Of a stretch of 7,482 nt of DNA, positions 6,638-7,482 are shown one piece after another. Position numbers and translations under genes: made by a program. The number at the start of each line of letters is the position of its first letter. Positions within the stretch are counted from its first letter, which is position 1. The stretch lies in NCBI GenBank assembly GCA_031273385.1, contig JAISRY010000084.1, positions 1-7,482 on the forward strand, in the 5' to 3' direction. This DNA comes from Tannerellaceae bacterium. GTDB lineage: Bacteria > Bacteroidota > Bacteroidia > Bacteroidales > Tannerellaceae. The notes beneath the pieces were generated by a model. The model was not told the origin of the DNA. It saw only the letters and a program-made list of their open reading frames with translations, and did not search any database.

Positions 6638-6982
6638 ATGCCGAGATCAGTAAATCATGTTGCTTCAAGAGCAAAAAGGAAACGGATTTTAAAACTTACG
6701 AGAGGGTATTATGGCGCTCGTAAGAATGTTTGGACAGTTGCCAAGAATACGTGGGAAAAGGGGCTGTTGTATGCCTTTCGCGACCGTCGTAATAAAAAGC
6801 GCAATTTCCGCGCGTTGTGGATACAGCGTATCAATGCCGCCGCCCGCCTGGAAGGGCTGTCTTATTCCCGTTTAATGGGGGCTTTGCATGCCAAAGGTAT
6901 AGAGATCAATCGTAAGGTTTTGGCTGATTTGGCAATGAATCACCCGGAAGCTTTTAAGGCGATTGTAGAAAAGGTAAAATAA
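6638..6982 (+). CDS. rplT: 50S ribosomal protein L20 (bL20)
   Basis: This 114-residue protein is an early 23S rRNA-binding assembly protein of the large subunit. It is the usual family length. The basic N-terminal tail shows [19 protein letters not shown] (1-19) and [10 protein letters not shown] (23-32). The globular part carries [14 protein letters not shown] (45-58), [11 protein letters not shown] (60-70) and [11 protein letters not shown] (73-83). In E. coli and Bacillus, L20 also represses its own operon through mRNA structures upstream; here the long structured spacer before it would be the place to look. ATG 6638 is fixed by the conserved MPR start. Its stop codon lies inside a perfect A/T palindrome (6977-6999). 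Confidence 0.98.
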
Positions 6983-6999
6983 AATCACCGATTTTATTT
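6977..6999 (+). other. 10-bp A/T-rich palindrome over the rplT stop codon
   Basis: AAATAAAATC (6977-6986) is the exact reverse complement of GATTTTATTT (6990-6999), with ACC as the loop. Only one G-C pair is present, so it would be a weak terminator at best. It contains the rplT TAA and reaches into the TTTG -33 box of the next promoter. Confidence 0.5.
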
Positions 7000-7028
7000 G
7001 ATTAATCTAAACCTATTTCCTATATTTG
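6997..7028 (+). promoter_or_regulatory. Strong Bacteroidota promoter for the downstream small RNA
   Basis: TTTG (6997-7000), a 20-bp spacer and TATATTTG (7021-7028) match the TTTG-N19-21-TAnnTTTG consensus completely. This is the best promoter in the window. Transcription should begin near 7033-7036. No credible start codon or conserved protein follows, which points to an RNA product. Confidence 0.8.
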
Positions 7029-7032
7029 TGAT

Positions 7033-7266
7033 GGAATAAGATGAGTTAGCCGCACCTGTTCGATTGGGAAACTCATCAGTTAAATATAATTCCGAGACAT
7101 TGCTCTTGTTGTCAATGGCGGGCCGCACCTTTCGGGGTATGCATTGCACGGCGGATTACAAAGATAACAAAGCGCTCAAATCCTGTCATACGGAGTTTGT
7201 TCATATCTACGGTGCGGCTTTCTTATTAAATAGAGGAAAACTTCTTCGCGAAGTTTTCCTTTTTTT
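7033..7266 (+). ncRNA. Small structured RNA, Bacteroidales-1 / 6S-like candidate
   Basis: A consensus promoter upstream and a strong intrinsic terminator downstream frame an RNA of about 195 nt, or about 230 nt with the terminator. Its ends pair. AGCCGCACC (7048-7056) matches GGTGCGGCT (7211-7219) over 9 bp. AATAAG (7035-7040) matches CTTATT (7222-7227) outside that. Further in, AAACTC (7069-7074) pairs with GAGTTT (7193-7198), and TTGTTGTC (7106-7113) with GATAACAA (7163-7170) through one G-U. CAATG (7114-7118) pairs with CATTG (7142-7146) near the tip. The result is one long, interrupted hairpin with large internal loops, as in 6S RNA, which sequesters RNA polymerase. The Bacteroidales-1 family is described as having this phylum's promoter, ending in a terminator, and often lying downstream of the L20 gene. 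All three hold here. The 5' end is inferred from the promoter, and the 6S role is a hypothesis. The open frame across 7064-7378 is not credible. Confidence 0.72.
7234..7266 (+). terminator. Intrinsic terminator of the small RNA
   Basis: AGGAAAACTTC (7234-7244) pairs perfectly with GAAGTTTTCCT (7250-7260) around TTCGC, giving an 11-bp stem followed by six further T (7261-7266). It ends the small RNA and any read-through from rplT. On the minus strand it lies 23 bp after the kinase stop, but what follows there (CTATTTAATAAG) is a poor T tract, so it works mainly in the + direction. Confidence 0.9.
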
Positions 7267-7283
7267 GCGCCAAAGCGGGGGCT

Positions 7284-7482
7284 TCAGGTTAGTTTCAGCT
7301 CTTTCAGCAACTGGGGGAAGCCATGTTCAAAATCCACTCCGAAGCGGCGGTCGGTCTTTTGTCCGTATGTCCGCATGATGCTGCCGGCGGTATAGCGGAC
7401 GGCAATATCCGCCGATTCTTTCAGGCTGAAATCGTTCAGCAGGCCGGCAAGCAGCGTACTGGCAAAGATGTCGCCGGTGCCA
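7284..7482 (-). CDS. Pyridoxal/pyridoxamine kinase, C-terminal part
   Basis: This is a partial gene, cut by the window edge, with 65 C-terminal residues and a TGA stop at 7286-7284. It starts with GTGDIFASTLLAGLL, the ribokinase-superfamily anion-hole motif carrying the catalytic Asp. The variant GTGD-[IL]-FAS, rather than GAGD, suits vitamin B6 kinases of the PdxK/PdxY type. These phosphorylate pyridoxal or pyridoxamine in the salvage of pyridoxal phosphate. The rest (AVRYTAGSIMRTYGQ, then an acidic and hydrophobic tail) fits a C-terminal helix region. It converges on the small RNA gene. Another PfkB-type sugar or HMP kinase cannot be excluded without the N-terminal part, so no gene symbol is given. 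Confidence 0.75.
   Translation of the reverse strand, partial: GTGDIFASTLLAGLLNDFSLKESADIAVRYTAGSIMRTYGQKTDRRFGVDFEHGFPQLLKELKLT

Follow-up and report, generated by a model that had tools for sequence, protein, structure and literature searches.

A Bacteroidales-1 RNA downstream of rplT in a Tannerellaceae bacterium is probably the 6S RNA of its lineage and shares a two-part closing stem with its relatives

The small RNA encoded downstream of rplT in the window, the 7,482-nt stretch of Tannerellaceae contig JAISRY010000084.1 analyzed here, is a copy of Bacteroidales-1 and, with high probability, its lineage's 6S RNA, which would mimic an open promoter and so hold sigma-ABfr RNA polymerase. 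Sequence comparison shows it as a rod closed by two stems (P1 and P2), with a bubble of two conserved strands, a terminal stem, its own sigma-ABfr-type promoter, a terminator, and a single match in each genome that has it (Table 1).

When the full window was searched with the Rfam covariance models, RF01693 (Bacteroidales-1) matched at 7048–7225 on the + strand over model positions 1–179 of 179, with a score of 182.4 bits (E 6.4e-33) that exceeds the curated cut-off of 60 bits threefold. This was the sole real match over the entire window; a mir-4659 match (22.5 bits against a cut-off of 92) was rejected as chance. The search bears out an earlier note on this DNA, made from the sequence alone, which had named it a probable Bacteroidales-1 or 6S-type RNA. 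The finding of that note is correct but not new because the RNA itself is already catalogued. Wehner et al. are said to have surveyed 6S RNA in 2014. In a passage of PMC5771137, one Bacteroidales-1 RNA is assigned to each of three P. gingivalis strains.

Table 1 Features of the Bacteroidales-1 locus in the window.
Feature	Position	Strand	Basis
rplT, ribosomal protein L20, upstream neighbor	6638..6982	+	Pfam PF00453, E 7.4e-42
-33 element TTTG of the sigma-ABfr-type promoter	6997..7000	+	Read directly; consensus from PMC7366714 (passage)
-7 element TATATTTG	7021..7028	+	Read directly; TAnnTTTG within 60 nt upstream in 45/50 family loci
Predicted transcription start	7033..7035	+	Placed by means of the -7 element
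Leader GATGAGTT; complement of 7070-7077, same sequence as the first 8 nt predicted for the pRNA	7040..7047	+	Conservation and complementarity; putative function
P1, closing stem, 5' strand	7048..7056	+	Two-sided changes at 9/9 pairs
P2, 5' strand AAACUC; would also template the pRNA	7069..7074	+	588/588 cells paired; covariation of an outer seventh pair in the distant set
Central bubble, 5' strand, with the predicted pRNA start near 7075-7077	7075..7101	+	Lies between P2 and the Rfam stem; predicted start
Terminal (Rfam) stem-loop	7102..7173	+	RF01693 structure line
Central bubble, 3' strand, with CAAAUCCUGU	7174..7192	+	Conserved in the 99-sequence alignment
P2, 3' strand GAGUUU	7193..7198	+	Pairing in the alignment and distant covariation
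P1, closing stem, 3' strand	7211..7219	+	Covariation, same test as the 5' strand
Intrinsic terminator hairpin, T-run to 7266	7232..7262	+	Fold and sequence

infC and rpmI precede rplT, and the RNA lies 65 nt past the rplT stop. The two promoter elements are separated by a 20-nt spacer and, as read from the sequence, fit the sigma-ABfr consensus TTTG/TAnnTTTG given in a passage of PMC7366714. In the window's family, 45 of the 50 loci have TAnnTTTG no more than 60 nt ahead of the RNA (shuffled mean 2.8), which sustains the consensus promoter proposed earlier. The motif was likewise present in 53/64 other non-zapA loci, but in only 2/29 zapA loci (shuffled means 2.6 and 0.7, respectively). The terminator, previously described as strong, is a 13-bp hairpin followed by T's. 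One listed + strand ORF overlaps the RNA (7064–7378, TTG start); it is not conserved, as the alignment of relatives contains gaps of 1 and 2 nt, in agreement with the earlier view that the region encodes no credible protein. The end of an ORF convergent with the RNA was seen on the - strand at 7284–7481.

The match to RF01693 is full-length with the same sequence elements; the difference lies in the structure, since Rfam pairs only the middle of the RNA (7102–7173) and leaves both ends unpaired, while P1 and P2 are extra stems proposed here with support from relatives. The RNA (7035–7232) folded better than its shuffles (z -2.57; 2/200 shuffles at least as good). To assess the stems, alignment A1 comprised 99 of loci L001–L102 (L033 and L034 were moved to A2, and L035 is a duplicate of L137), and alignment A2 comprised 44 distant loci (L035, L145, L146, and L147 were dropped as duplicates and L104 since its contig ends). 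P1, reported earlier as a 9-bp perfect closing stem, is indeed perfect in the window, and the covariation check on relatives found two-sided changes at all nine pairs among 98 distinct Bacteroidales sequences, with 92.5% of cells paired and compensated variants such as AGCCGCAC/GUGCGGCU, AGUCGCAU/AUGCGACU, and GGUUGCAU/AUGCAACC. In the 44 distant sequences, two-sided changes occurred at 7/7 pairs of P1 and 93.2% of cells were paired. For P2, 588/588 cells were paired in the Bacteroidales alignment, with only one two-sided and two one-sided cells; 97.4% of cells were paired in the distant set, where a seventh, outer pair appeared as UA, AU, GU, GC, and CG with 17 two-sided cells. None of 500 shuffles reached the values of P1 and P2 together for cells paired, pairs with two-sided change, two-sided cells, or covariation score, and 5/500 reached the fifth measure, further pair types. 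Slid versions of P1 and P2 paired 31–46% of cells; the shuffles do not take out the relatedness of the sequences, but the slid controls retain it. The architecture suggested by the sequences is therefore a two-part closing stem, a central bubble, and a terminal stem. An outer 6-bp stem had also been claimed. GAUGAG (7040–7045) pairs with CUUAUU (7222–7227) in the minimum-energy fold, but this stem is unsupported because leader–tail pairing in the family was not above shuffles (median p 0.39; p 0.12 for the window itself). A local hairpin, GAU/AUC around AAACUC, showed no covariation and was rejected.

These parts agree with the 6S class plan of closing stem, central bubble, and apical stem, with some probability left to another fold of P2. 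In that fold, the working structure would consist of P1, AAUUCCG/CGGAGUU, and GACA/UGUC, leaving AAACUC single-stranded in a larger bubble. We give it roughly one chance in five. With AAUUCCG (7088–7094) as partner of the P2 3' strand, the predicted fold of the window gains 2.4 kcal/mol; 91.6% of cells are paired over 98 distinct sequences, the score of this fold is reached by only 6/500 shuffles, and two-sided change (2 cells) is seen at one pair of the inner GACA/UGUC part. The main helix, yet, has no two-sided change, and it was rejected as a covarying helix even though it is mostly paired; one of its pairs is broken in 39/97 sequences and another in 11/98, and its 5' strand is, by eye, missing from several of the 44 distant sequences, whereas P2 is never broken in the Bacteroidales alignment and is paired in 97.4% of cells in the distant one. 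The P1–P2 fold and this alternative could also both be true in turn, as a switch. A hairpin within the 3' strand, CAAAUCC/GGAGUUU, which would be a release hairpin, gave a mixed result: 68.2% of cells were paired, three measures were reached by 0 or 1 of 500 shuffles and the other two by 443 and 489, and the hairpin slid by 3 columns scored as high.

The reading as 6S RNA, also put forward in the earlier note, was upheld by several observations. The Rfam description line of RF01693 reads "6S-Bacteroidales RNA suggested". Passages of PMC7366714 describe a 6S RNA of Bacteroides, for which dRNA-seq of B. thetaiotaomicron gave evidence of two pRNA classes, so that expression and pRNAs are published for a relative, the equation with RF01693 being by name and Rfam text only. 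RF00013 (6S) matched 0/10 genomes, namely that of the window (70% complete) and those of 9 relatives, with E. coli and B. subtilis controls positive. Therefore, these 10 genomes have no other 6S RNA by that model. Finally, zapA lies beside many distant relatives of the RNA. The canonical 6S plan, as given in a passage of PMC8414754, has a closing stem, a central bulge with the pRNA start, and an apical stem, and the window RNA resembles ssrS in these parts and, through its distant relatives, in zapA adjacency (passage in PMC7641849). It differs in that the RF00013 model yields no hit within the window, even with E values as high as 1, so that the RNA is not filed under that model, and in that the primary sigma factor and promoter of the host are different (passage in PMC7366714).

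The 6S label would be a mere analogy if this were a structured trans-acting small RNA with another role than that of polymerase decoy, such as regulation by base pairing or the sponging of a protein. The lack of a match to RF00013 is consistent with such an RNA, as is the fact that no convincing TAnnTTTG mimic was seen by eye in the bubble, the conserved CAAAUCnUGU on the 3' strand being all that was noted; the 2010 discovery paper of the motif, in the passage concerned, likewise treated it as an RNA of open function with cis-regulatory and switch status marked '?' (PMC2864571). We nevertheless consider this alternative improbable in view of the pRNAs reported for Bacteroides 6S RNA (PMC7366714, in part), the canonical 6S plan recovered by covariation, zapA beside many relatives, and the single match per genome with no other 6S by RF00013.

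RF01693 gave a single match in each of 50 of the 59 genomes of the window's family (39/42 of the good-quality ones) and in each of 85 of the 294 genomes of the order, 61 of them above the cut-off. A pattern scan of named species gave 0 matches with a long pattern and 15 with a shorter one. Four distinct loci outside the family were matched by both RF01693 and RF01685 (6S-Flavo), all below the RF01693 cut-off and one above that of RF01685. A joint model, R1, was built from alignment A3, i.e. 36 of the 44 A2 sequences after 8 with long inserts or doubtful stems had been dropped by eye; its training set contained none from the window's family, and all had first been found with RF01693 or RF01685. 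R1 recovered the window RNA at 96.2 bits (E 1.1e-16, a rough value) and gave a single match in each of 122/296 genomes of the class, while RF01685 alone matched 14/296 genomes of the class and RF01693 alone 6/296 genomes of the phylum. The class samples had completeness floors of 95 for R1 and 90 for RF01685, and all three counts are lower bounds, given that each sample was drawn on its own and that weak matches are lost by the fast filters. Judged from their sequences, RF01693 and RF01685 look like one family: the strands AAACUCA and GGAGUUU are common to both, and one joint model finds both groups. They differ in the middle stem and in that Flavo-type loci follow zapA; zapA-type loci mostly have no TAnnTTTG promoter close upstream, unlike the window's family.

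The L20 gene was found within 450 nt upstream in 36 of the 50 window-family loci, the other 14 showing none within that distance, and ZapA was absent from the upstream DNA examined at all 50. Among the 81 other loci of the order, 15 had L20 and 17 had ZapA within 150 nt, and more than half had neither. Adjacency to L20, which the earlier note had described as frequent for Bacteroidales-1, thus holds in part. Pfam PF05164 confirmed the ZapA call in each of three proteins checked, and distinct zapA loci numbered 29 with class-level loci included. We also used a held-out set of 16 previously unseen loci among the 30 best-scoring of R1's 122 matches. All 16 had ZapA upstream, in 13 cases no more than 150 nt away and in none farther than 198 nt; 0/16 had L20, and 0/16 had TAnnTTTG within 60 nt. 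A passage of PMC7641849 places ssrS behind zapA in beta- and gamma-proteobacteria; the 6S passages of that paper, the one retrieved from the open-licence literature for zapA and 6S RNA in Bacteroidetes, concern Proteobacteria. At zapA-type loci, the P1 3' strand often runs directly into a T-run (e.g., GCGGGTTTTTT and GTAGGCTTTTTT), and therefore P1 may double as terminator at these loci, whereas the window has a separate one.

The short distance from the rplT stop and the L20 gene upstream of most family loci could also be explained by a cis-acting element of the rplT operon, either a 3' UTR or an attenuator, with infC–rpmI–rplT or the next gene as its target. This is very unlikely, since a TAnnTTTG promoter lies close upstream in most loci of the family, the RNA has its own terminator, L20 is missing from the 450 nt upstream of the RNA at 14/50 family loci, and zapA precedes many of the distant members.

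If the RNA acts as 6S RNA, the polymerase would sit on the central bubble, with P2 and P1 serving as the downstream duplex. The 5' strand of the bubble would be the template with a start near 7077, and the pRNA is predicted to begin GAUGAGUUUCCC, its predicted 5' end being GAUGAGUUU (template 7077, plus or minus 2). Copying of the pRNA would open P2, refold the RNA, and free the enzyme. During synthesis of the RNA, the leader of the window's family, GAUGAGUU, may pair with the template strand and give way once the P1 3' strand appears.

In the window, the leader is identical to the first 8 nt predicted for the pRNA. Conservation in the window's family covers the nine bases before P1 (mostly 0.8–1.5 bits per position, one 0.56), and the 16 bases upstream of them mostly have <0.5 bits (one 0.91). 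GAGTT was present in the last 12 nt of the leader in 35/50 family loci versus 1/81 other loci. Exact complementarity to AAACTCATCA over 5 nt or more occurred in 42/50 family leaders (shuffled mean 5.5, maximum 15) and in 4/48 other strong Bacteroidales matches; since the 50 loci are relatives, this complementarity is the trait of one lineage and not 50 observations. The duplex energies of the last 25 nt with the bubble strand (family mean z -1.70, median p 0.12; window p 0.01) are weaker evidence than these counts. When folds of successive prefixes were predicted with an assumed start at 7034, the 8 pairs between the leader and 7070–7077 were present in all 10 prefix folds from 7078 to 7216, and P1 replaced this helix in the prefix fold ending at 7220. 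Leader pairing is not general: two further families of 3 loci each stood out (mean z -4.4 and -2.6), and the remaining 14 families lay between z -1.3 and +0.9. In family f69, GAUGAG was seen again in the leader, farther from P1. In family f114 (L047–L049), a different leader (CAUAAGAUU) pairs over 9 bp with the 5' strand of the bubble, which is a different solution to the same pairing.

At zapA-type loci, the DNA ahead of the RNA often carries GTTC[TA]T, a putative boxA that resembles the boxA sequences of E. coli and B. subtilis. It was found between the zapA stop and the RNA in 19/29 zapA loci (shuffled mean 0.7, maximum 4), close behind the stop in, for example, L118, L126, L130, L139, and L213, as against 7/114 non-zapA loci, for which the 80 nt ahead of the RNA were examined. 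Ten of the 16 held-out loci had it within 60 nt (shuffled mean 0.5, maximum 4). Between the stop and the RNA, the script counted 15/16 held-out loci (shuffled mean 1.05, maximum 6), a figure in which the match of L203 does not count, its interval having been set far too long (1500 nt, probably through masked bases), and in which L208 was scored as a miss, probably since the script put the stop inside the motif; both loci carry the motif within 60 nt. In the 14 held-out loci with a sound interval and a match, it begins 1–14 nt past the zapA stop. The 16S gene was found in 14 genomes, and the leaders of 9 of them, one from the window's family, were examined: GTTC[TA]T lay within about 300 nt of the 16S gene in 7/9, as a raw count. 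A small inverted repeat was seen by eye between the boxA-like site and the RNA in L200, L203, L204, L213, and L217. By eye, L110, L112, and L124, which belong to one family, have a TAnnTTTG promoter and, in the leader, GTTCTTTGAA or a near copy (GTTCCTTGAA in L112); no zapA was found beside the RNA at these loci, and the boxA-like leader is kept. A boxA-like leader alongside the RNA's own promoter fits an RNA-level role. No paper connecting boxA and NusB with 6S RNA was found in the open-licence literature.

As a tentative scenario, to which we give less than even chances, the 6S RNA of Bacteroidota may ancestrally have been made like rRNA, by read-through from zapA with boxA shielding right after the zapA stop. 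The window's family would then have escaped to rplT and gained a sigma-ABfr promoter, its leader being a built-in pRNA that keeps the precursor from the decoy role until it is folded or trimmed.

With the joint model, two Rfam families would become one, with stems that are absent from RF01693, and far more Bacteroidia are reached than with the Flavo model (122 versus 14 of 296 genomes). A zapA–6S gene order common to Proteobacteria and Bacteroidota would speak for common descent or for a lasting connection of cell division with the control of polymerase. If functional, the boxA-like site ahead of the 6S RNA would tie 6S synthesis to the machinery that makes rRNA.
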